From: Bacteroidales bacterium
GTDB lineage: Bacteria > Bacteroidota > Bacteroidia > Bacteroidales > FEN-979
Direction of reading: 5' to 3'
DNA: 64,000 nucleotides
Assembly: GCA_028706295.1 (NCBI GenBank)
Contig: JAQWBQ010000001.1
Span: forward strand, 1-64,000
In this document: positions 4,069 through 36,290 of the stretch, piece after piece
Position numbering within the stretch: position 1 is the first letter of the stretch
How the letters are laid out: each line of letters opens with the position of its first letter
Made by a program: the position numbers and the translations under genes
Notes under the pieces: generated by a model
Seen by the model: only the letters and a program-made list of their open reading frames with translations
What the model was told of the DNA's origin: nothing
The model's database searches: none

Positions 4069-7020
4069 ATGGATTACAATTTTTCGGAAATAGAGAAAAA
4101 ATGGCAGCAATACTGGATCGACCACAATACTTACCGGTCCGAAATTGACCATTCTAAACCCAAATACTATGTGCTCGATATGTTCCCGTACCCATCGGGC
4201 GCCGGATTACATGTCGGACATCCGCTCGGATATATAGCTTCCGATATTTTTTCAAGATATAAGAAGCTTCAGGGTTTCAACGTCCTGCATCCGATGGGAT
4301 ACGATGCTTACGGATTACCAGCAGAACAGTATGCCATTCAAACCGGAACACATCCTGCCATCACGACTGCAAGAAACATTGCCCGATACCGTGAGCAGAT
4401 GGATCAGCTTGGCTTTTGTTTCGACTGGAGCCGCGAGGTAAAGACCTGCGATCCGGATTACTACAAATGGACGCAGTGGACCTTCATTCGTCTGTTTCAC
4501 CATTGGTATAACAACGAAAACAGGAAAGCTGAGCCGGTAACCGGATTGATCAGACATTTTGAAATATATGGAAATGCAGGAATCAATGCGGCCATGAATA
4601 CCGGCTGGGTCAAGGATCTTATCAAAAAAGACCCGGGCTTCGGCCATAACTGGGATGGAATCTTTTCAGCTGAAATGTGGAATCATTTCTCAGAAAAACA
4701 GAAATCGGAAATCCTGATGAATTACCGGCTCGCCTACCTTTCTGATGCCATGGTGAACTGGTGCCCTGAACTGGGAACCGTGCTTGCCAACGACGAGGTT
4801 GCAAACGGCTTTTCTGTCCGGGGCGGACATCCTGTCGAACGAAAACTGATGCGACAGTGGTTTCTCCGGATCACTGCCTATGCCCAGCGGCTCCTCGACG
4901 GACTTGATACCATTGATTTTTCAGAATCTCTAAAAGAGATGCAGCGCAACTGGATTGGTCGTTCAGAGGGAGCTGAAATTTTATTCCGGGTTAAAGATTC
5001 CGATCTGCACCTGCCGGTATTCACCACCCGCCCCGACACCATTTTCGGGGCAACCTTTATGGTTCTGGCCCCAGAACATGAAGTACTTTCCCGGATAACC
5101 ACGCCCGATCGAAAACAGGCGGTTGATCGTTATATCCATGAAGCCATGAACCGCTCGGAACGGGAACGTATGGCTGAAGTCAAAAACGTTACCGGGGTGT
5201 TTACCGGCGCATACTGCATCAACCCGTTGAACGACGAACCGCTTCCCATCTGGGTAGCCGATTATGTACTGGCCGGTTATGGTACCGGCGCGATCATGGC
5301 TGTGCCCGCACACGACAGCCGTGATTATGATTTCGCAAGGCATTTTAACTTACCCATCATAGAAGTGGTTTCGGGGGGCGACATATCAGAACATTCCTAC
5401 GATGCCAAAGAGGGCATATTGGTGAACAGTGGATTCATCAACGGAATGGATGTAAAAACTGCTATCGGAGCAGTGATCCGCAAGATACAGGAACTTGGTC
5501 TTGGTCGGGGTACCGTGAATTACCGTTTACGCGATGCTATTTTCAGCCGACAACGTTATTGGGGCGAGCCATTCCCGGTTTATTTCACTGACGGGATTCC
5601 CCAGACACTTGATGAAAAAGAACTTCCCCTATTGCTTCCCGAAGTCGACAAATACCTGCCCACCGAAACCGGAGAACCCCCGCTGGCAAGGGCGATAAAT
5701 TGGAAAACCCGCGAAGGCTTCCCTCTTGAAACCAGCACCATGCCCGGATTTGCAGGATCAAGCGGATATTACCTGCGTTACATGGATCCCGGTAACAAAA
5801 AGGAGTATTTTTCCAAAGAAGCAGTGGAATATTGGCAGGATGTTGACCTGTATATCGGCGGTTCAGAACATGCCACGGGCCACCTGATATATTCCCGCTT
5901 CTGGAATAAGTTTCTCTTTGATATCGGATTGTCGGTAAAAGAAGAACCATTTAAAAAACTGGTGAACCAGGGGATGATCCAGGGAATCAGCCAAAAGGCC
6001 AGGGTTTTGTTCCGTTCACTCCTGGAGGAAACGTCGTCCTCCGAAAATGCAGGAGGCTGGGTTCTCCCGGCAGGTTTTGACTACTTTGATAAGAACAACG
6101 AAAACCTGATAGCCTGGATTAACATTCCGGTTGAGTATGTTCACCAGAATGTACTGAAACAGGAAATGTTGGACCAGTGCGGAAAAGTGCTCACCACACT
6201 GGCAAATTACAAGATCGCAAATCTGGAGGATATTCTGAACAGCCCCCTGGTCCCGGCAAATGAACGGGAATTTGTAAAGCAACAATACGGGAATCTTTTC
6301 ACAACGGGTAGCGTGACGCTGAAACCAGAGGTTGAAAAGATGTCAAAGTCGAAATATAATGTTGTTAATCCCGACGATCTGGTAGCCAAATATGGTGCTG
6401 ATACCTTCCGGCTTTATGAAATGTTTCTGGGGCCTTTAGAGCAGTCAAAACCCTGGGATACCAACGGAATAGAGGGAGTATTCAGATTTATTCGCAAATT
6501 CTGGAGATTATATCATAATGAGAATAACGACTTCAGGGTCTCAGAAGAGGCCCCGAATGCACAAGAGCTCAGGATTCTCCACCGAACGATTAAAAAAGTC
6601 CGGGATGACATCGAACGACTCTCGTTTAATACCGTCGTCAGCACATTCATGATCTGCGTCAACGAATTGACAGACCTTAAATGTGATAAAAGCGCTGTCC
6701 TTTCCGATCTCGTCGTTTTGGTCTCTCCCTACGCTCCGCATCTTGCCGAAGAATTGTGGAACCAACTGGGTCATACCGAAAGTGTATTCTTTGCCCGGTT
6801 CCCTGAATTTAAAGCCCAATACCTGGTCGAGAACACATTTGAATATCCGGTATCTTTTAACGGTAAAATGCGATTCAAACTGGAACTGCCTGCCGATATG
6901 GCAATAGCCGATATTGAAACTGCCGTGGTAGCTGCAAAAGAATCCGAAAAATGGCTTCAGGGTAAACCTCCCAGAAAGATCATCGTGGTACAGAACAAGA
7001 TCATCAATGTGGTGATTTGA
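4069..7020 (+). CDS. leuS: Leucyl-tRNA synthetase
   Basis: Class I aminoacyl-tRNA synthetase that charges tRNA-Leu in the cytoplasm. The HIGH-type signature is HVGH at residues 48-51, and [14 protein letters not shown] follows at about residue 757. The editing domain is present ([19 protein letters not shown], then the [15 protein letters not shown] motif). At 983 residues it is longer than the typical bacterial enzyme of about 860. Extra sequence sits near residues 145-215 (between the HIGH motif and the editing domain) and near residues 640-750, just before KMSKS. From memory, insertions at these places are usual in Bacteroidota LeuRS, so this is lineage-typical rather than aberrant. The ATG at 4069 begins directly at the conserved N terminus. 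Confidence 0.98.
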
Positions 7021-7048
7021 TTTCGATCAACCGGATACCGGCACGATA

Positions 7049-7077
7049 TTTGCTTTTCTGCCTCACTTTTAATTTTG
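7049..7077 (+). promoter_or_regulatory. Promoter of the alpha-2-macroglobulin-like gene
   Basis: A -33 TTTG at 7049-7052 and a -7 TAATTTTG at 7070-7077, 17 nt apart, fit the Bacteroidota promoter pattern. The leader to the ATG at 7191 is about 105 nt. Confidence 0.55.
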
Positions 7078-7190
7078 TACTTTCGATTTTCAAATTTCAT
7101 GTGCGTGAATGTCCTAAGGAAGCGGTTCATTCATATTGTGAATGAGAAAATGGACATTCCTGTTATCCATTTCAAACAAATTATCAGCGA

Positions 7191-10100
7191 ATGAAAACAA
7201 GGATTCTTCTATTGACAGTCAGTACACTGTTCTGGATCGGGGGGGTCTCCTTCGTCCTGCCATCAAACAATTCCGGCCGGGATAACAATTCAAAATCTGA
7301 TCATCCTTTTTCTCCCGGAGCCCGGACTTCCGACCTTGCATCCTGTCAACAAATACGCGCTCTGCCCCCAGACTCCTGGAAATCGGTCGATTCCCTCATC
7401 AAACTCGGCCAACCCCGTTCAGCGCTTGATATCGTGAATAAAATTTACACAGAGGCCAGGAGAGAAAATGATACCCAGCAATACCTCAAGGCAGTTCTCT
7501 ACCGCATCAGAATAAATTCAGAATTCCAGGAAGATTTCATAATCCAGACAGTGCATGAGCTCCGGGATGAGTTGTCAGGAAGCCGGGAACCGGCCACATC
7601 GGTACTCCATTCCATTTTGGCTGATGTTTATTATAAATACTACCGGAATAACCAATATCGTTTTCGTGACCGCAGCCGGCTTTCTGTTATTAATTCTGAC
7701 AGTATTACCACCTGGGATCTGAATACCATCACCGAGGCGATCACCAACGAATATTTACGTTCCATCCAAAACAGTACCCTGCTTAAGTCTGTCCCCATTG
7801 AATCCGTCAAGGCCATTCTGGAAAGTTCAGCAAATGAGAACCAACCAAATCCCGGCAAACGGACAAAGAAAAGCTCCCGTACTGCAGAGGTCTGCCCTAC
7901 TTTATACGATTTCCTGTGCAACCGGGCGCTCGATTTCTTTTCGAACAGCCAGGGCGCGGAAAACCAGCCACCCCAATGGTTCAGTATCGACCGGCCGGAA
8001 TTTTTCGGTCCGTCGGCCGCATTCAGCAACTTCCTGAATGGCCCGGTAGCGTTCCCAATCCGACCACTAAGCTATGACTCGATCTCAACGACCGAAATTT
8101 CCTTCAGAATATTTCAACTCCTGGTCGATTTTCACCGGAATGATAAAAATCCCGCGGCTCTTGTCACCATTGAACTGAAACGACTTGCATATGTATATGA
8201 TAATGCTGTATTTCCCTCCGATTCAATTTATTTGGAAGGATTGAAAAAGCTTGAACAATCCCACATCCAATCGCCCTGGTCGACCGTGGTGTCATTCGCC
8301 GCGGCCAGTGTGCTGTATGAATGGGGTCAACGTTATCAGCCGTTGCAGTCGGCCGACCACAAATGGGATATAAAAGCTGCACGTGAACTGTGTGAATCTG
8401 CCATAACCAGGTTTCCCGATTCCGATGGCGCGGGAAATTGCCGGCAACTATCCGACAACATCCGGGAACCCTTACTGCATCTAATTTCCGAGCAAGCAGT
8501 TCCTCCCGAAAAAACCTCCCTGGTGAAGGTGGAAATCAAAAACATCCGGGAACTGTATTTTCGTCTGGTACAGGCTGATCCCGAAGTGTATGCCGAAAAA
8601 GCCGACCGGATCGGCCGTAAGGAATTTATGAAATACCTGAACCAGTACCCTGTAAAACAAGCCTGGAAACAAACAATTCCATCTGACGGGGATTTCCAGA
8701 AACATTCCGTTACGCTTGCGGTTCCTCCGGTCCTGCCCGGTTATTACGTACTTCTTTGCGCTTCCGAAGAATCTTTTTCAATTGAAAAGGGCACGCTGAC
8801 TTATACCCCTTTCTGGTCCACCAGGATAAGTTTCATCAGTAATAAAAATGATGACGGAAGCATGGATTGCATTATTCTCGACCGCGAAACCGGCCTGCCG
8901 ATGAAGCATGTGAAAGCTGAGGCATGGGAAAGAAGGTACAACTATTCAAAACAGGAACCTGTTAAGGTTAAACTCGCTGAGTTTTTCACCGATGATCACG
9001 GCATGTTCCGGTTCGTAGCGCCCGCTTTGAACAACAGGAGTTCCGGTGATTTTTTCAGGTTTTCCTTTAAAGATGACCTGATGATTACCGATAACTTTTT
9101 TCTATACAGGAATAAGCCCGCGGAGGAAAGAAGCCACCTGCAAACTCTTTTTTATACCGACAGGGCCATCTATCGACCGGGACAGAACTGTTACTTCAAG
9201 GGGATCATTCTTGAACGAACCGGAGATCAGACTAAAATCAAACCCGGCCAGTCAACAAAAGTCCAGTTCAATGATGCCAATGGCCAAAAAATCGCGGAAC
9301 AGCATTTTATTACCAATGAATTCGGTTCATTCAACGGATCTTTTTCTATACCGGTTGGCCGGTTAACGGGATTGATGAATATTTACAATGAGTCGGGATC
9401 CATATCGGTTTCGGTTGAAGAATATAAACGTCCGACATTTGAAGTGATCCTCAATCAACCAGAAGGGAACTATAAACTCAACGAAAAACTGACGGTTACC
9501 GGAAAAGCCCTGGGGTTTGCCGGTAATGCCATCGACGGGGGCATGGTTCAGTTCAGGGTGGTTCGGTCAATTCGATTCCCATATCGTGATTGGGGCTGGT
9601 TCTGCCCGGTTACAACCAGTCCCGAAACGGAAATTTCTCATGGTATCCTGAAGACCGGTAGTGACGGCAGTTTTTCAATTGAGTTTACAGCCGTACCAGA
9701 CCCCGCAACAGAAAAAACAACCCGACCTGTATTCGATTTTACCATAACAACCGATGTAACTGATCTGAATGGTGAAACACAATCGGTTCAACAGGTGGTG
9801 TCTGTCGGATATGTCTCACTGCTACTGAATCATAACCTGAAAGATATTGTTAACCTGCACCGTGATAGTTTATTGAAAATAACAACTACCAACCTGAATG
9901 GCCGGCCGACATCGTCAAAAGTGACTGTGAAAATTTCAAAGCTTCGCCAACCCGATCGGGCATTTAAGCCCCGGAAATGGGAACAATGCGATTTGAATAT
10001 CATGACCCGTGAGGAATTTCAGTCCCGGTTCCCTTATGATATTTACGCAAATGAAAACGACCCTTCGACCTGGCCGGTGGATAAACCAGTTTTTGAGAAA

Positions 10101-28223: not shown

Positions 28224-30047
28224 TTAATGAAATACCAGTTCTCTGTACCGTGGATGATTCCAATAATCCATCAGAATTTTAAATGCTTCATAGGTCTCTG
28301 GTTGAACCTCCCTGCTGAAAAATCTGATATTCCTGCTTAGAAAAAGTTTCCCGTCTTCGACCCGCACCTCCCAGGAAAATTCACCGGCTTTGTTTCTGAT
28401 ATTGATTTTCTTTGGAAGGCTGAACAACCTTATTGTTGAAGGAAGTGTGATGACATATGTATATTCTTCTTCTGCCCTGGAAGGTAATTCAAGCACGGTC
28501 TCCCGATGGGCCGGTAAGGTCTTCACCGACCAGTTGTCGATACCAATCGTAAGGGCAGGAATCGTGAAATAATAAAAACCGGTATCAGCCCGCAAGGGTT
28601 TTTCGCTCTTTAAAATAAAGGTCTGGAATCCATTGTCATTGTTGAGGGTGCTGATCTTGGGATCCTGAATTTCTGCATGGCTGAAACTACTTGCGACTGA
28701 TTTTTTCAATCTTTTGGGATCTCGTTCCAATCCCGCCCTGGGATAAGCTGAACCGTTAAGATAAACCGAAATTTCACCAGTCATAACAGGATCAGACGAC
28801 AAAAGAAAAGTCCCGTTTACCCGGACTAATTGTGACGGATCTTCATTTTTTATCACGGTTAAACTGTTTTCAGGATCCAGTGTAATGAATGAACGTCCGG
28901 CAAGCGTCATATCCAGATTAACGGCATTAAGGCTGGTTGTCGAAAAAAACCATCGTCCCTCTCTTTTAAAATCCGCCATTACTGTAAAATCTTCAAAATC
29001 GCTCAATGTACCGATCCCTGCCAAAAGATTCGCGCTCCTGACAACAGCACATACGCTGGCATCAATTCCGGCTGCTTTCATCAGGGTCACCATAAGAACC
29101 GCCTTTTCAAGAGCAGTTCCGCCATTGCTGTTCCAGGTTTGCTCTGCAGTACGGCACTGATACAAAGCCGTCTTAATAGGTATCGGATAATGACGCATTT
29201 CATCAACCACGCGTTCCTGAATCTTTAATGCCAGGGGAAACCGGTCGGGCTTTTCCACAACAAGTTCGGCAACAAGCTTTTTCATGGAGTCATTGGCTTT
29301 GAATCGAAAGGCATCTTGTTGGGTCAGGTATGGTATCACCTCTTTTCGGTGTTCAAAAGTGCTGAATAACAATTTCGGGTAGTTATCAAATCCGACCTGC
29401 TGAAAATCTTCATGCGAAAGTGCTGGAATATCTGTGAATTTCCAGGTATAAACATCAAAGGAACCTTCGGTACTTTTAACCGGTTCAGTATCCGTGTTGA
29501 ATGCGTGATAAAATATTTTTTTACCAGCTGGAATCCTGATTTTAATTGTGAGATTCTTTACCGGCTCGGCTTCGGCCAGAATTTCATTTCCCATCAGAAA
29601 ATTAAAGGTGCCCGGAAGCGAATGAATCTGATAATCCAGGTGAATGACGGCATTTCGCTCAAGACCCGTATGCGTGATTACCATTTCCCGAAGATCATTG
29701 TATGCTGGAGCATCAGCGGCTATAAAGGGCAATACTTCATTGAACGCATTGGAGGGAGTAATAATTTTTTTTCCGGATGCCATTACGGTGTATACTTCAT
29801 TGATTTTCAAATGCTGCCGGGTAGGATTATAAATGATAAAAGTCTCTCCGTATAGGTTATGAAATGCGCGGTAAGAGAGAAGCTTTTGGTCTTTGATAAA
29901 ACGGAAATCTGTACTTCCGTCCTCATTCAGACTGTACTCCTTTGTGATGGATTGATATATGCCATCATAATGTATATCTTGCGCAAATAATAGACACGGC
30001 GGAACGATAAAAATGATTAGAAATAGAATCAACCGATATTTTTTCAT
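28224..30047 (-). CDS. DUF3857/transglutaminase-like protein, catalytic Cys lost
   Basis: 607 residues with a signal peptide (hydrophobic residues 5-20, ending LLFAQ). The N-terminal half resembles the DUF3857 beta-sandwich, followed by a transglutaminase-like fold. Where its upstream partner has GVCKDKAGML, this protein has GGTALEKAVLM (about residue 311), so the nucleophilic Cys is absent and this copy is probably inactive or scaffold-like. A C-terminal beta domain of about 180 residues follows. Its ATG overlaps the stop of the preceding gene by 4 nt (ATGA), which implies coupled translation and a shared envelope role. The molecular target is unknown. Confidence 0.83.
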   Translation of the reverse strand: MKKYRLILFLIIFIVPPCLLFAQDIHYDGIYQSITKEYSLNEDGSTDFRFIKDQKLLSYRAFHNLYGETFIIYNPTRQHLKINEVYTVMASGKKIITPSNAFNEVLPFIAADAPAYNDLREMVITHTGLERNAVIHLDYQIHSLPGTFNFLMGNEILAEAEPVKNLTIKIRIPAGKKIFYHAFNTDTEPVKSTEGSFDVYTWKFTDIPALSHEDFQQVGFDNYPKLLFSTFEHRKEVIPYLTQQDAFRFKANDSMKKLVAELVVEKPDRFPLALKIQERVVDEMRHYPIPIKTALYQCRTAEQTWNSNGGTALEKAVLMVTLMKAAGIDASVCAVVRSANLLAGIGTLSDFEDFTVMADFKREGRWFFSTTSLNAVNLDMTLAGRSFITLDPENSLTVIKNEDPSQLVRVNGTFLLSSDPVMTGEISVYLNGSAYPRAGLERDPKRLKKSVASSFSHAEIQDPKISTLNNDNGFQTFILKSEKPLRADTGFYYFTIPALTIGIDNWSVKTLPAHRETVLELPSRAEEEYTYVITLPSTIRLFSLPKKINIRNKAGEFSWEVRVEDGKLFLSRNIRFFSREVQPETYEAFKILMDYWNHPRYRELVFH

Positions 30048-31990
30048 AATTCGATAATTACAGGTTTTTGCGCAAATTTATTCTGTGCCTCAACAGCCGA
30101 TCTGAATTCGGGCCAATCAGAACCCTCATAAAGCCTTTTTTTGAAGAATGCCTGCCCGGAAAAGATAAGGGAACCGTTGATATATTTATAACCACCCTCG
30201 AAGGAAGCGACATTCCCTTTTGTTTCAACAGTTTCCGGAATTCTTACAAGCTGCCTGACCGGAGGAAGGGTAATCGATTCATGTATCTCTACCTTTCGGG
30301 AACAACGATCCCGAAAGGCAAACTTCCTTTCTTTTAATCCGGTGTCAAACGATAAATGTCCCTGAAAAGTTCTGAAGATCCCGGCGGCAGTCAGTGGTGT
30401 AAACAGCAACGTTTTACCGGATACCAAAGCAAATTCAGGGATTGTGTAATCAATAGCAATCCACATGTTGAAATTCAGGTAATCGGCAGGATCTGAAAAC
30501 TTAACCTGGGAAATTTTGGCCTGGGGGCAAATTTTTAATAATTCACGCGAAACATTCTGTGACCATGCTCTCTGGCTTGATCCTCGGAACATCCCGCGGA
30601 TTGCGGCATCCGACTGACCTTCACCCCAGATGGTAATTCTTCCCGATAATGAACCATCTTCATGCAATTGCGAAACCCCTTCAATTTTTATCAGGTGATT
30701 CTCCGGATCAGATACAGGTGTGGTTGCCAGATCGGCTCCTTCGGGTATCCCCATGAGATACTGTTGCTGCTGCTCTGCGCTGGACCAGAGCTCCCGTATA
30801 AAGGGTACCCAGGTCGGATCAAGTAAATGATATGTGCTATCTCGTAATTTAACCACCGTAACACAATGGTTAAACTGATCTGCCGGAATTTTGTCAATAC
30901 GGGAACCAGCCATGGTCATGGCAGGATAGGATTTAAAACCAGCCGCCCGGAGCATGGTGATGAGCATTCCGGCTTTATCTTTGCAAACGCCACACCGGTC
31001 AGTGAATGTCATTGAGCCTTTGTGCAGGGTAAAACCTTCACCGGGACCCATTGAAATTCCGGAATATCTTATTTCATCGGCACACCAGTGCGTAAGCCTC
31101 GAAACAGAATCCAACTCGTTGACAGATCCCTTTAATATGGAATCTACCTTGTCCTTAATCTCCCGGGTGGACTCAAAGCTGCCAAACTCCTCGTTCACGC
31201 CGAAAAACCAGGTCGATTTTGCAAACCAGTTTGCAGTGGTTGAAAGCAGCAATTTGGGTGCAATATCCGATTGAGCTACCATCCTTGGTTCACTTTTCAC
31301 AGGCATTATGTCTTTTTTAGTAAATGTATAGACCATCTTTTCGACTGAGAATTTCGAAGATACCTGCGCCTCCCCGTTATAAAATTCATATTGAAGCGGC
31401 TTGTTGCGCGGGAGTGTTATCTGATAAATTTTGCTTTTCACCGGAACAGGTCCGAAAAATTCTACAATATCATAAAATTGCCCCCTCATTGGAGGAATGT
31501 ACTTTTCATCTTCGTCGCCCCCTAATAAAGCATAGGTAAACCCTTTTCTGAACATCACCACTTCCACGGCATCACCAGGGTCAAGCCTCCCGATTTCAAT
31601 CATCTTTTCACGCGCACCCCAGTATATGGCTCTTGCCGGTGCCGGATAATCAAGAACTTTATTCAGATCAATCGGTACGAAACATCCATCTTTTTTGTGA
31701 ATTACCGCCTTCAATATATTCACATCGGCCGATAAAGGATCGTAACCGAATTTGACCGTCGAAAGATCGCGGCACCCGCGTCTGGTTATTACCTTTGTAA
31801 GGGTGTGGTTTACAACATAAGAGAGTCCCGATTCCTGAACATCAATCAGGGTGCTGTCAAATACCACGACCTGATCATAACCGGGAAGGGTGGAAGCATC
31901 CCCTGCTTTATCAATAAGCTTTCTGAAATCTGCCTGAGCAAATAGGGAAATCTGCGAAAACATAATCAAAATGAACAGAATATTTCTCAT
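30044..31990 (-). CDS. DUF3857 protein with intact transglutaminase domain
   Basis: 648 residues, secreted or envelope-located (signal peptide residues 3-18, ending SLFAQ). An N-terminal DUF3857-like region is followed by a transglutaminase-like core. The triad is visible: Cys in CGVCKDKAG (about 331-334), His in FNHCVTVV (about 374), Asp in LLDPTW (about 391). The C-terminal region is beta-rich. Such proteins are thought to be proteases, amidases or cross-linkers acting on envelope proteins, but substrates are unknown. It sits between a receiver-PAS gene (3-nt gap) and a degenerate paralogue (4-nt overlap). Confidence 0.87.
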   Translation of the reverse strand: MRNILFILIMFSQISLFAQADFRKLIDKAGDASTLPGYDQVVVFDSTLIDVQESGLSYVVNHTLTKVITRRGCRDLSTVKFGYDPLSADVNILKAVIHKKDGCFVPIDLNKVLDYPAPARAIYWGAREKMIEIGRLDPGDAVEVVMFRKGFTYALLGGDEDEKYIPPMRGQFYDIVEFFGPVPVKSKIYQITLPRNKPLQYEFYNGEAQVSSKFSVEKMVYTFTKKDIMPVKSEPRMVAQSDIAPKLLLSTTANWFAKSTWFFGVNEEFGSFESTREIKDKVDSILKGSVNELDSVSRLTHWCADEIRYSGISMGPGEGFTLHKGSMTFTDRCGVCKDKAGMLITMLRAAGFKSYPAMTMAGSRIDKIPADQFNHCVTVVKLRDSTYHLLDPTWVPFIRELWSSAEQQQQYLMGIPEGADLATTPVSDPENHLIKIEGVSQLHEDGSLSGRITIWGEGQSDAAIRGMFRGSSQRAWSQNVSRELLKICPQAKISQVKFSDPADYLNFNMWIAIDYTIPEFALVSGKTLLFTPLTAAGIFRTFQGHLSFDTGLKERKFAFRDRCSRKVEIHESITLPPVRQLVRIPETVETKGNVASFEGGYKYINGSLIFSGQAFFKKRLYEGSDWPEFRSAVEAQNKFAQKPVIIEL

Positions 31991-31993
31991 GCG

Positions 31994-32830
31994 TTAATCG
32001 TTTTGGTTCCTGTAATCCGATATATCAATAAAGCCTGCAGTCAGAGCCGGAAAACCCTTATAATCGATCATCCGGAAGGAAATATCAAGATATTTAATTT
32101 TTTCCGTTGTTGCCAGGGTCCTGATTTGAATGCGTTGTGGGTCAAGATTTATCCTGTCCAGGCAGGAATGAATCCGTGACGATAATTCCCCGCGGTCGGA
32201 TGGATGTACAGTATTCATCAGATCCATTAAAGAAAGAGCAGAAAACCCCTCCGCGGAATAACCGAAAATCTCGGGCGCCCGGTTATTGAAAAAAACAAGC
32301 TGGCCATTTTGCCAGATGGTAATGCCTATTAGGACATTATCAGAAATAGTATGATTCAGTGCCATCATTTCTCTGTTCTCCTCTGAACGTTTTTCCAGCA
32401 ATGCCTCAAGCGTTTTCTGATACTGTTTATTTTCAATTTCAAGATTTCGCTGATAGGATGCAATTTCAATGGTCATCTTGGTCTGCTCCATGTCAATGGG
32501 TTTTAAAAGATATCCAAAGGGCTTGATCTTGAATGACCGGTCATAAACCTCTTTCGAACTTTGCCCCGTCAGAAATATGATGGCACAATTAAATTGTTCA
32601 TTGATTCTTTTTGCGGTTTCGATCCCGTCAAGATCTCCCCGGAGATGAATATCCATAAGTACAATTTCCGGTTCCCTTCCCCGTTCCGACAGTTCAAGGA
32701 TTTCCGATAAACAGGTCTCGCCCCTGCTGGCAGATCCACAAACCTCATATCCAAAATTGTTTAATTGCGATTTTAAACTGGCGGAGATCAATAATTCATC
32801 CTCAACAATATATATACTGATTGGCTTCAT
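31994..32830 (-). CDS. Receiver-PAS response regulator
   Basis: 278 residues. The N-terminal CheY-like receiver has the acidic pair Glu10-Asp11, phosphoacceptor Asp60 in VLMDIHL, Thr88 in IFLTGQ and Lys110 in YLLKPID. A short coiled linker (about 122-155) leads to a PAS domain (about 155-275). There is no DNA-binding or enzymatic output domain, so it must signal through another protein, perhaps a kinase. No histidine kinase is adjacent. It heads a three-gene operon with the two transglutaminase-like proteins (3 nt to the next start), an unusual pairing of cytoplasmic signalling with secreted proteins. Confidence 0.87.
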   Translation of the reverse strand: MKPISIYIVEDELLISASLKSQLNNFGYEVCGSASRGETCLSEILELSERGREPEIVLMDIHLRGDLDGIETAKRINEQFNCAIIFLTGQSSKEVYDRSFKIKPFGYLLKPIDMEQTKMTIEIASYQRNLEIENKQYQKTLEALLEKRSEENREMMALNHTISDNVLIGITIWQNGQLVFFNNRAPEIFGYSAEGFSALSLMDLMNTVHPSDRGELSSRIHSCLDRINLDPQRIQIRTLATTEKIKYLDISFRMIDYKGFPALTAGFIDISDYRNQND

Positions 32831-32899: not shown

Positions 32900-33772
32900 T
32901 TATCGGGTACTGATCATCATTAACATGTTTATCTCGGATTCCTCAAGGAATCGCCAGTGCCCCCTGGGAAGATTTTTTTTTGTTAAACCCGCATAATAGA
33001 CCCGATCAAGCTTTACGACTTTATACTCAAAATGTTCGAAAATCCTTCTTACAATTCTGTTTTGTCCTGAATGCAACGCGACACCAATCTGCTTACGGTC
33101 TTTACCATCACCAATGTATTCAATGTTGTCGACCTTCACCGTATCTCCTTCCAGTACAAGACCATCGGAAATCTTTATCAAGTCCTCTTTGATCAAGGGC
33201 TTATCCAATTCAACATGATAGATTTTTTTTATTCCGTACCGTGGATGTGTCAGCTTTTTTGCAATATTACCGTCGTTTGTAAAAAGCAATAATCCGGTAG
33301 TGTTCCTGTCAAGTCGACCCACGGGGTATACCCTTTCCCGACAAGCCCCGGCAATCAGAGTCATAACGGTCTTGCGCTTCTCGGGATCATCAACTGTGGT
33401 AATAAAACCTTTTGGCTTGTTTAAAAGAATGTACCGCGGTTTTTCACGGCTGATGGCCTGATCACCGAACATTACCCGGTCCGATGGATTAACTTTTGTT
33501 CCAAGTTCCGTTACAATCTTTCCATTTACACTCACTGCCCCGGCCTGAATGAGTGTATCGGCTTCTCTGCGGGAACAAACACCTGAATTCGAAATAAACT
33601 TGTTCAGGCGGATCTTATCCGGTTCTCCCCTCCCCTGCCCGGACCTGACACTCTTTTGAAATTTTTTTCCCGATGACCTTACAAAGGGACGTGACGGCTT
33701 TCCATCTGGATTATCCCGTTTTTTTTCCGGATTATATTGTTTCTCCGGTTTGCCTGATTTTTCATTTTTCAT
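32900..33772 (-). CDS. rluB: RluB/RsuA-type rRNA pseudouridine synthase
   Basis: 290 residues. The N-terminal about 50 residues are a basic, disordered tail (many K/R/G/P), common in Bacteroidota members. An S4 RNA-binding domain follows (RLNKFISNSGVCSRREADTL). The catalytic Asp155 sits in VGRLDRNTTGLLLFTNDG. The family isomerises uridine in 23S (RluB) or 16S (RsuA) rRNA; RluB is the better guess from the RRIFEHF/VVKLDRVYYAG segment. It starts 1 nt after the stop of the repeat-protein gene, so it is co-transcribed with that gene and nadA. Confidence 0.9.
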   Translation of the reverse strand: MKNEKSGKPEKQYNPEKKRDNPDGKPSRPFVRSSGKKFQKSVRSGQGRGEPDKIRLNKFISNSGVCSRREADTLIQAGAVSVNGKIVTELGTKVNPSDRVMFGDQAISREKPRYILLNKPKGFITTVDDPEKRKTVMTLIAGACRERVYPVGRLDRNTTGLLLFTNDGNIAKKLTHPRYGIKKIYHVELDKPLIKEDLIKISDGLVLEGDTVKVDNIEYIGDGKDRKQIGVALHSGQNRIVRRIFEHFEYKVVKLDRVYYAGLTKKNLPRGHWRFLEESEINMLMMISTR

Positions 33773-35335
33773 TTAATCGTCCTCCTTTTCAAATGGCGGT
33801 TTGATCTTTACACCGTCAAACTTTGTTTCAACACCCGCCCTGTATGTAATTACCATGAAGAGCGACCCGTCATAAAGGTACCTGGACCAATCGCCTTCTT
33901 TTCTGCCCATAACATAATTACCCTCTTCCTTAATCTTGCCATTATCCCAAAACCAGGTATGCCTTCCATCCGGATGGTCGTCAATAAAATTTCCTTTATA
34001 TATCAAAATACTGTCTGTTCTTCGACCAGTTGTGTCGATGAGCAGATAGTACCACATCCCGTTTCTGAGTCCGTCCCGGTAAGAACCCCGGATATAGCTG
34101 TCGCCGGTTATTTCAAACCATGGCCCATCTTCCAGATCATCAATGAATTCCCCCTCAAAGATAACTTTTCCAGATTCCTCATATTCCGATGACAACCCGT
34201 CCTTCATCCCGTTCCGGTATGATTCTTCCCGTAATAAAGCGCCGTTCTCATAATACCATTTCCAGGTACCATCCCGCTTGCCCTGCTTCGTAAAATTACC
34301 AGTTTGCTCTGTTTTCCCATCCTGATAATAATATTTCCATTTGCCAACGGGTTTATCATTCTCGTAAACACCTTCAGCTTTCAATTGTCCCTCCTCGTAA
34401 TACTCTCGCCAGGGGCCTTCTCGATTTCCATCTTCTTTGACCAATCCCTCGCCGACAATTCGTCCGTTTTTGAACAATTGCGCTTTTTCGATCCTGCCCG
34501 CTGAATCATATTCCTTCCTGATACCCTCCGGAATACCATTCCGGAACATTGCACTAATTTTTACATTTCCGTTCGAATAATACTCCTTCTGAACTTCAAG
34601 CTTTTGTATTTCACTGGCTTCAGGTTGTAACTGCCCATCTGAATATTTTGAGATCCGGATAAGATCTCCGTTTTCGGAATATTCCTTGAAATATCCATCT
34701 TTAAGATCATCTTTGAATGATCCTTCCATCTGAATATTTCCGTTTTCGTAAAAAGAAAACCATTTCCCCTGACGCTTACCGCTTGCATCTTTTCTGTTAA
34801 TACGCATCCGATCAACAATGAATCCTTTTTTATATTCGGTCAGGGTAATGATGGTACCATCCACAGCATATTCCTTTCCATAACCTTGTTCGAGCCCCCC
34901 GTGGAAGGGTATTTCCAGCTTTATCTTCCCATCCGGATAAAAATATTTTGTGACACCTTCTTTTATGTCATTTCTGTACGATTCACTTATGATTTCCTGA
35001 TCCAGATAAGATGTTCTGTTACCGAATTTTTTTCCAGACTTGTAATTGATTTCCAAAACCAGTTTACCAACATCATTATAGAATTTCCAGGTACTGTCCA
35101 ATTCAAAATTCTTTCGTGATCCTTCCGACTTCAGTTTCCCGTTTTGATAGTACGATTTCCAGTATCCATCAGGTTTTCCATCACGAATAAATCCTTCACT
35201 GGAAATCTTTCCATCAGCAAAATAATACCGCTGAAATCCATCCTTAGATATCGTGTCTTGTGACAATACATCAGACAATGAATTCAGAAAAAATAAAAAA
35301 AATAAAATTCTTAAATATTTGATTTTGAATGCCAT
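33773..35335 (-). CDS. Large YwqK/MORN-like repeat protein
   Basis: 520 residues taking the ATG at 35335 as start (MAFKIKYLRILFFLFF); an ATG at 35368 would overlap nadA and precede the signal peptide. A signal peptide ends near SDVLSQ. The rest is roughly 17 tandem units of about 20-25 residues built on G-x-W/Y-x-x-Y/F-x-x-x-G-x-L/I-x-x-E-G, as in MORN and YwqK-type repeats. These fold into a beta-hairpin ladder. The end (KPPFEKEDD) is acidic. Function is unknown; an envelope binding or scaffold role is an inference. It abuts rluB. Confidence 0.85.
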   Translation of the reverse strand: MAFKIKYLRILFFLFFLNSLSDVLSQDTISKDGFQRYYFADGKISSEGFIRDGKPDGYWKSYYQNGKLKSEGSRKNFELDSTWKFYNDVGKLVLEINYKSGKKFGNRTSYLDQEIISESYRNDIKEGVTKYFYPDGKIKLEIPFHGGLEQGYGKEYAVDGTIITLTEYKKGFIVDRMRINRKDASGKRQGKWFSFYENGNIQMEGSFKDDLKDGYFKEYSENGDLIRISKYSDGQLQPEASEIQKLEVQKEYYSNGNVKISAMFRNGIPEGIRKEYDSAGRIEKAQLFKNGRIVGEGLVKEDGNREGPWREYYEEGQLKAEGVYENDKPVGKWKYYYQDGKTEQTGNFTKQGKRDGTWKWYYENGALLREESYRNGMKDGLSSEYEESGKVIFEGEFIDDLEDGPWFEITGDSYIRGSYRDGLRNGMWYYLLIDTTGRRTDSILIYKGNFIDDHPDGRHTWFWDNGKIKEEGNYVMGRKEGDWSRYLYDGSLFMVITYRAGVETKFDGVKIKPPFEKEDD

Positions 35336-35348
35336 TTTTACAACATCA

Positions 35349-36290
35349 TTAGGTATTTGACAATTCAAGCATTCTTATTATGGGTTTTTTTGCACTGATA
35401 ATAAGTTCTTCCGGCAAAATGATCTCCGGTTGTAAATTAAGTAATGACTCATATATTTTTTCTAAAGTATTCATTTTCATATAAGGACAATCATTGCATG
35501 AACAGGTCTCATCAACCGGAACAATAATGAACTCTTTATCTGGTGCCTCCTTTTTCATTTGATGCAGGATCCCTGTTTCCGTTGCAACAATAAACTTTCT
35601 TGAAGAACTGTTTTTAACGAATTGAATAAGAGCAGTGGTAGAACCTATAAAATCAGCCATTTCCAAAACGATTGGTTTACATTCCGGATGTGCAATTAAA
35701 ACAGCATCCTTGTGTTTTTCCTTAAACCTGATAATCGTTTCTGATTTGATGTTTTCATGAACTTCACAACTACCCTCCCAAAGAACCATTTCACGGCCTG
35801 TAATAGTATTGATATAGTTTCCAAGATTTTTATCAGGCGCAAAGATTATCTTTTCTTGTTTTTGAAGGGAATTTACAATTTTTAAAGCATTTCCTGAAGT
35901 ACAAATGATATCCGACATAGCTTTTATCTCGGCTGAACAGTTGATATAAGAAATCACAAGATGATCGGGATGATCTTCTAAAAATTTCCTGAATTCATCT
36001 GGCGGACAGGAATCAGCTAAAGAACAACCCGCCTGTAAATCGGGAATTAATACTACTTTTTCAGGATTCAAAATCTTAGCTGTTTCTGCCATAAAATGTA
36101 CCCCGGCAAACAAAATAATCTTTGCCTGTGTTTTTAAAGCCTGTTGTGATAACCCAAGGCTGTCTCCAATGTAATCAGCAATATCCTGTATTTCGGGAGT
36201 CTGATAATAATGTGCTAAAAGTACTGCGTTTCTTTCATTTTTTAGCTGTGTTATTTTTCGTTGAAGCTCTACTATTTGACTATTATTCAT
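35349..36290 (-). CDS. nadA: Quinolinate synthase
   Basis: 313 residues. Condenses iminoaspartate with dihydroxyacetone phosphate to quinolinate in NAD synthesis, using an oxygen-sensitive 4Fe-4S cluster. Expected cysteine ligands are Cys89 in AGCSLADSC, the Cys in WEGSCEVHE (about 173), and one in the C-terminal CSCNDCPYM segment. The N terminus has the HYYQTPEIQDIADYIGDSL motif. nadB and nadC are not in the window. It leads the nadA - repeat protein - rluB gene run. Confidence 0.97.
   Translation of the reverse strand: MNNSQIVELQRKITQLKNERNAVLLAHYYQTPEIQDIADYIGDSLGLSQQALKTQAKIILFAGVHFMAETAKILNPEKVVLIPDLQAGCSLADSCPPDEFRKFLEDHPDHLVISYINCSAEIKAMSDIICTSGNALKIVNSLQKQEKIIFAPDKNLGNYINTITGREMVLWEGSCEVHENIKSETIIRFKEKHKDAVLIAHPECKPIVLEMADFIGSTTALIQFVKNSSSRKFIVATETGILHQMKKEAPDKEFIIVPVDETCSCNDCPYMKMNTLEKIYESLLNLQPEIILPEELIISAKKPIIRMLELSNT

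Follow-up and report, generated by a model that had tools for sequence, protein, structure and literature searches.

In the 64,000-nucleotide stretch of Bacteroidales DNA analysed here (hereafter the window), two adjacent genes encode paralogous proteins related to transglutaminases, of which one (TG1) keeps the catalytic Cys-His-Asp triad and the other (TG2) has lost it, and the true unit of the locus is this pair, not the trio that it forms with the response-regulator gene (RR-PAS) directly upstream. We propose, with a probability of roughly 0.6, that TG1 is an exported cysteine enzyme and TG2 its dedicated non-catalytic partner, probably within the same extracytoplasmic complex, and that RR-PAS is a later neighbour.

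Organization of the locus

The three genes are arranged head to tail on the minus strand, with a gap of 3 nt between RR-PAS and TG1 and of -4 nt between TG1 and TG2, as described in an earlier reading of the letters without database searches (hereafter the sequence-only reading), all of whose ORFs were recovered. The features of the locus are:

31994..32830, minus strand: RR-PAS, 278 aa; receiver (Asp60, Thr88, Lys110) and PAS, without DNA-binding output
30044..31990, minus strand: TG1, 648 aa; signal-peptide-like N-terminus, DUF3857, transglutaminase-fold catalytic domain and C-terminal domain; predicted active cysteine enzyme
28224..30047, minus strand: TG2, 607 aa; DUF3857, degenerate transglutaminase fold and DUF3858; predicted catalytically dead partner
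30983..30994, minus strand: TG1 codons for Cys333-Gly-Val-Cys336; nucleophile Cys336 and near-invariant Cys333
29100..29123, minus strand: TG2 codons for GGTALEKA (residues 309-316), the pseudo-active site; Glu314 in 109/111 and Lys315 in 107/111 sequences
31298..31828, minus strand: DUF3857 domain of TG1
29421..29921, minus strand: DUF3857 of TG2, the most conserved region of this protein
28230..28577, minus strand: DUF3858 domain of TG2 (Pfam)
32900..33772, minus strand: RluB-like pseudouridine synthase (Pfam); conserved upstream neighbour in the window's family
33773..35368, minus strand: MORN-repeat protein; conserved upstream neighbour in the window's family

The same-strand run in the window is longer than the sequence-only reading had recognised and reads NadA-MORN-RluB-like-RR-TG1-TG2; the gene upstream of MORN we take from its sequence to be NadA, and the gene converging from downstream of TG2 is presumably DnaG. 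RR-PAS matches Response_reg of Pfam and, weakly, PAS (PAS_3, E 9.1e-5, below the cut-off; NCBIfam sensory_box, E 1.8e-7, above the cut-off), in agreement with its earlier description as a response regulator lacking an output domain. TG1 matches DUF3857 and Transglut_core (PF01841; 33.6 bits against the curated cut-off of 23); TG2 matches DUF3857 (105.5 bits) and DUF3858 (79.6 bits) above the Pfam cut-offs, and Transglut_core below the cut-off, with 18.3 bits. The window's genome carries two further active/dead DUF3857 pairs and one lone active DUF3857 copy.

Loss of the catalytic residues in TG2 and the location of constraint

The comparison of residues used ORFs of at least 381 aa that matched the window protein with more than 150 bits; after removal of duplicates in the last 250 residues, it comprised 115 distinct TG1 and 111 distinct TG2 sequences. 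In TG1 of the window the catalytic residues Cys336, His375 and Asp391 lie in the motifs DRCGVCKDKA, FNH and LDPT, and the whole triad is present in 115/115 sequences. Alignment of GGTALEKA of TG2 with CGVCKDKA of TG1 is ungapped and sets Ala312 opposite Cys336, so that the pairing of an enzyme with a pseudoenzyme, suspected from these letters, holds across the set: none of the 111 TG2 sequences has Cys in the nucleophile column, and the triad is lost. This column varies freely (Glu 19, Pro 17, Ala 13, Leu 13 and others), and the pattern G-T-x-x-E-K around it is largely kept among the same 111. TG1 has a further cysteine, Cys333, three residues before the nucleophile in 114/115 sequences; in two loci outside this set (L247, L248) the nucleophile is kept and the extra cysteine is gone. 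The CxxC of TG1 is a possible redox switch.

After thinning to less than 75% identity, the location of constraint was found to differ between the two proteins. The catalytic domain is the most conserved part of TG1, with 67/116 columns at 90% or above and a mean majority of 0.85; for TG2 the corresponding pseudo-catalytic domain has 4/123 such columns and a mean majority of 0.47, and DUF3857 has 24/167 and 0.62. Constraint thus lies in the catalytic domain for TG1 and in DUF3857 for TG2, and such a shift between domains is the trace expected of a partner or binding role.

Comparison of TG2 with a near relative gave dN 0.0185 and dS 0.0734, that is, dN/dS of about 0.25, indicating purifying selection, and this, together with the many relatives of both proteins, argues against a pattern produced by chance. 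That TG2 is a functionless copy in decay, as its lost catalytic residues, the split gene in one locus (L129) and the internal stops reported in three genomes (G403, G449, G465) would allow, is hardly credible, since TG2 is retained alongside TG1 across the order; the low dN/dS and the strongly held residues of DUF3857 led us to reject this explanation.

Co-inheritance and linkage of TG1 and TG2

In a sample of 198 Bacteroidales genomes, searched at thresholds of E 1e-60 for TG1 and E 1e-40 for TG2, TG1 was detected in 55 and TG2 in 52 genomes, TG1 being present in all 52 with TG2, and neither gene in 143 (Fisher p 1e-44 for co-occurrence, a value that ignores relatedness). The three genomes with TG1 only are G384, in which a TG2 fragment lies at a contig edge apart from TG1, G499, in which a contig edge cuts TG1 itself, and G491, which is 76% complete, with TG1 877 nt from the contig end and no TG2 seen. 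Within the window's family, a DUF3857 search found the pair in 40/43 genomes, the other three (G001, G039, G042) having neither gene.

Linkage outside the family was examined in the 80 best among 319 confirmed matches on named contigs plus 40 loci drawn from the strongest hits of an order-wide DUF3858 search; once loci that agreed in the final 150 residues of TG1 (or TG2), many of them on the same contig, had been collapsed, 78 distinct loci remained. In 73 of these 78 TG1 is followed immediately, and on the same strand, by TG2, with a median gap of 21 nt. Three exceptions (L118, L130, L199) are contig edges, and in the other two (L197, L198), both from the family f71, the pair is unlinked, TG1 being located on another contig. 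The named isolate Parabacteroides distasonis carries the pair. Among the 296 genomes sampled from the phylum, the search for strict orthologues of TG1 and TG2 gave a full-length match in the window's own genome only, all others being remote, and the TG1/TG2 lineage is thus, as far as sampled, a feature of the order. The conserved presence of a dead paralogue inherited together with the active one across Bacteroidales suggests that TG2 is a working partner of the enzyme, and co-inheritance and conserved gene order are consistent with TG2 binding TG1 or its substrate.

TG2 might instead be an independent binding protein, for instance for a sugar or a peptide, that shares only transcription and ancestry with TG1. 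Its faster evolution (mean distance 0.80 against 0.43 for TG1) and the separation of the genes in f71 would fit such a role, as would a mirror-tree comparison of 26 genomes, in which the partial correlation of TG1 with TG2 (0.18) is lower than that of TG1 with DnaG (0.50), giving no signal of co-evolution beyond shared descent. We nevertheless regard independence as rather unlikely, because TG2 occurs with TG1 in 52 of 52 genomes and both are missing together from 143 of the 198, and because the rule of one active copy holds in other DUF3857 clusters (see below).

As to the surroundings of the pair, no conserved functional neighbourhood was found outside the family; the eight outside-family neighbours scanned were a deaminase, a TPR protein, a phosphoesterase, a fatty-acid desaturase, a ComEC-like protein, LpxB, an asparagine-synthase-like protein and a helicase. 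In P. distasonis (L271, 1-8556) the pair, with its genes at 5001-6959 and 6973-8556, starts 2 nt after menaquinone genes, and among the loci of the searched ORF set a menE-like gene precedes the pair in one only (L162). A 98% identical TG1 is encoded on a contig titled Alphaproteobacteria (SACF01000001.1; L051), whose counterpart among the family loci (L018) has the same synteny; the contig probably belongs to a Bacteroidales assembly with a wrong label.

Distribution of the response regulator

RR-PAS was searched in the 43 genomes of the window's family, and 39 family loci were fetched, across which the order NadA-MORN-RluB-RR-TG1-TG2-DnaG is largely kept. RR-PAS lies upstream of TG1 in 30 of them, is missing from seven with equal synteny (L036-L042, of the genera g3 and g4), and is undecidable in two (L019, L044), where TG1 starts at the contig end. 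Outside the family, none of the 78 distinct loci (taken from the top 80 of the 319 confirmed matches and from the 40 DUF3858 loci) had an RR-PAS match above 90 bits. The trio is thereby confined to a single family, an outcome that the sequence-only reading had itself named as counting against its proposal.

The sequence-only reading had joined the regulator to the two exported proteins as one system, in which RR-PAS would regulate, or be regulated by, the pair. In its favour, RR-PAS lies directly upstream in the 30 family loci, within 50 nt of TG1 in 25 of these 30 (median gap 17 nt), and Asp60, Thr88 and Lys110, that is, the phospho-acceptor Asp with the Thr and Lys of the receiver, are invariant in 11/11 aligned proteins. 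We consider such a system quite improbable, because the regulator is missing from the seven family loci of equal synteny and from all 78 outside loci, is as near to the RluB-like gene as to TG1 (median gap 6 nt; within 50 nt in 28/29), and lacks its PAS half, with the receiver present, in L046 and L048. In L029 and L032 a gene for a protein of 640-653 aa sits between RR-PAS and TG1, and RR-PAS still adjoins the RluB-like gene; the inserted protein (L029, 3834-5795; L032, 7052-8974) appears by eye to be multi-spanning in the membrane and TPR-like. None of the neighbours read, part of which were scanned for families, could be recognised as a histidine kinase.

In 41/43 family genomes the search also listed another regulator, whose receiver is related and whose frame is longer, and RR-PAS therefore looks like a paralogue that settled at this locus; the copy in the window's genome (L050) has 47% identity to RR-PAS over about 155 aa. 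The longer C-terminal part of this copy (2531-3502 of L050, minus strand) looks HTH-like by eye, Pfam finding the receiver only. From its distribution we rejected RR-PAS as a core part and take it to be probably a family-specific neighbour of the pair. Thus, of the earlier interpretation, the enzyme/pseudoenzyme pair with its conserved loss of Cys is supported and the regulator as a part of the system is not supported; the envelope-modifying or sensing role that it put forward is possible.

Active and dead copies in other DUF3857 clusters

Exactly one copy with both Cys and His was found per cluster in 31 fetched loci, from the family, the order and the phylum, and in two clusters of the window's genome, and the partner lacks Cys in 32 of these 33 clusters (30 of 31 fetched plus the two in the window's genome). 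Of the fetched loci, L209-L220, picked with TG1/TG2 profiles, mostly that of the dead TG2, are biased towards dead copies, L230-L240 came from DUF3858 hits, and only L221-L229 were derived from plain DUF3857 hits. The exception is L232, in which the partner keeps Cys and Tyr replaces His; L221 is nearly identical (97%) to the C1 pair of the window's genome. Two loci (L213, L216) hold one active and three dead DUF3857 copies.

There were 14 apparent single copies in the family. Four of them (L261, L263, L265, L268) adjoin a second DUF3857 copy, dead where readable, the partner in L265 being a fragment; five (L255, L256, L257, L260, L262) are lone and active by residues; two (L258, L259) are active by residues and near contig ends; and the reading of three (L264, L266, L267) is ambiguous. 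A dead copy standing by itself was not observed in the family.

Eight long proteins of about 1050-1280 aa (L201-L208) were considered as TG1-TG2 fusions. Each joins an N-terminal half, which has TPR repeats in the two proteins scanned by Pfam (L203, L205), to DUF3857 and a single active transglutaminase domain; the long proteins are thus not active/dead fusions.

With respect to the origin of the dead copies, two changes between active and dead labels were needed both in the free LG tree of 116 rows and in the LG+C20 tree of 82 rows. Trees in which the dead copies were constrained together scored higher (lnL +49.7, p-AU 0.877 for 116 rows; lnL +6.1, p-AU 0.597 for 82 rows). A single origin is accordingly not rejected by the trees, and two origins are possible.

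Predicted structures and probable export of the pair

AlphaFold2 models were obtained with a mean pLDDT of 88 for TG2 and 78 for TG1, the active-site loops of TG1 lying below 50, so that its triad is assigned from sequence. The best match of both models is 3kd4_A (Z 38.1 over 503 residues with an rmsd of 3.5 for TG2; Z 21.2 for TG1). In its fold DUF3857 resembles the N-terminal domain of M1 aminopeptidases and one domain of ribophorin I/Ost1 (Z about 10 to 12; LTA4H about 10, Ost1 about 11.5), and region 233-405 of the TG2 model matches transglutaminases; against residues from about 234 on, 3isr_B gave Z 10.5 and human transglutaminase 2 (6kzb_C) Z 10.9. A sequence search at E 0.1 yielded no solved relative of TG1.

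PDB 3KD4 is BDI_1141 of P. distasonis, deposited as a 'putative protease', and is homologous to TG2 over the whole length, including both DUF3857 and DUF3858. Leaving aside the initial tag residues, its chain is identical to the DUF3858 protein whose gene starts 13 nt downstream of the P. distasonis TG1, which has intact CGVC, His and Asp. Despite its name, it has Pro at the nucleophile position, and with its gene following TG1 it is, by residues, a pseudoenzyme and the dead half of a pair.

In a crude scan, hydrophobic N-terminal stretches were found in 110/115 TG1 and 109/111 TG2 sequences, which suggests that both proteins are exported. With regard to lipoprotein or membrane anchoring, lipobox-like motifs were few in the same kind of scan (3/115 TG1, 4/111 TG2), and transmembrane-like stretches beyond residue 70 occurred in 5 TG1 and 23 TG2 sequences.

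Comparison with known systems

The catalytic fold of the pair is common to transglutaminase-like cysteine proteases and transglutaminases such as 3ISR, LapG and human transglutaminase 2, from which the window pair differs by the extra DUF3857 and C-terminal domains. To our knowledge, none of these enzymes is encoded alongside an obligate dead paralogue. M1 aminopeptidases and ribophorin I/Ost1, the latter of the oligosaccharyltransferase, share the DUF3857-like fold and have other catalytic partner domains, and this likeness of fold by itself says nothing on function.

Inactive transglutaminases of the RloB type, described for the Pseudomonas rlo operon (PMC12239564) and for hm2192 (PMC12096838), are fused to a seven-helix part and share their operon with a retropepsin-like protease and an ATP-grasp protein instead of an active transglutaminase paralogue. 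TG2 is not of this type, since it matches DUF3857, DUF3858 and, weakly, Transglut_core only, the RloB-type domains with the seven-helix part being absent. In three further sources, 3KD4 is counted among transglutaminase-like proteases (PMC4866520), DUF3857 is mentioned in passing (PMC6341742), and a classification of papain-like families does not contain the term 'PF12969' by term count (PMC10318531). Searches of the open-access literature on DUF3857, DUF3858, 3KD4 and transglutaminases yielded neither an account of active/dead DUF3857 pairs nor one of the function of 3KD4.

Proposed role of the pair and its meaning for Bacteroidota

We suggest that TG1 would act as an exported cysteine enzyme of papain/transglutaminase fold, and that TG2 would be a subunit of the same extracytoplasmic complex which has given up catalysis and may keep DUF3857 in order to bind TG1 and/or to hold the substrate for it. 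The pair would most likely cut or transfer peptide or amide bonds in envelope material; a protease or amidase is tentatively favoured over a cross-linking enzyme, from the broad nature of the fold and from the M1-like domain. RR-PAS would be a later, lineage-specific arrival beside the pair.

More broadly, and at slightly less than even odds, the pair may represent a class of heteromeric extracytoplasmic cysteine enzymes found throughout the phylum Bacteroidota, each cluster keeping exactly one active DUF3857-transglutaminase together with one or more obligate dead paralogues, which would derive from one ancient inactivation (or from two independent ones). The dead subunit would capture and present the substrate through its M1/ribophorin-like DUF3857, and activity would depend on the pseudoenzyme. 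For DUF3857 and DUF3858 an open-access search found almost no literature, and the sole sequence-matched solved structure found, filed as a protease, represents the dead member of a pair. Partnership can be tested directly in a named gut isolate that carries both genes. If the partnership is true, work confined to the active protein would overlook a required subunit, and many Bacteroidota, including gut isolates, would use an envelope enzyme that depends on a pseudoenzyme.
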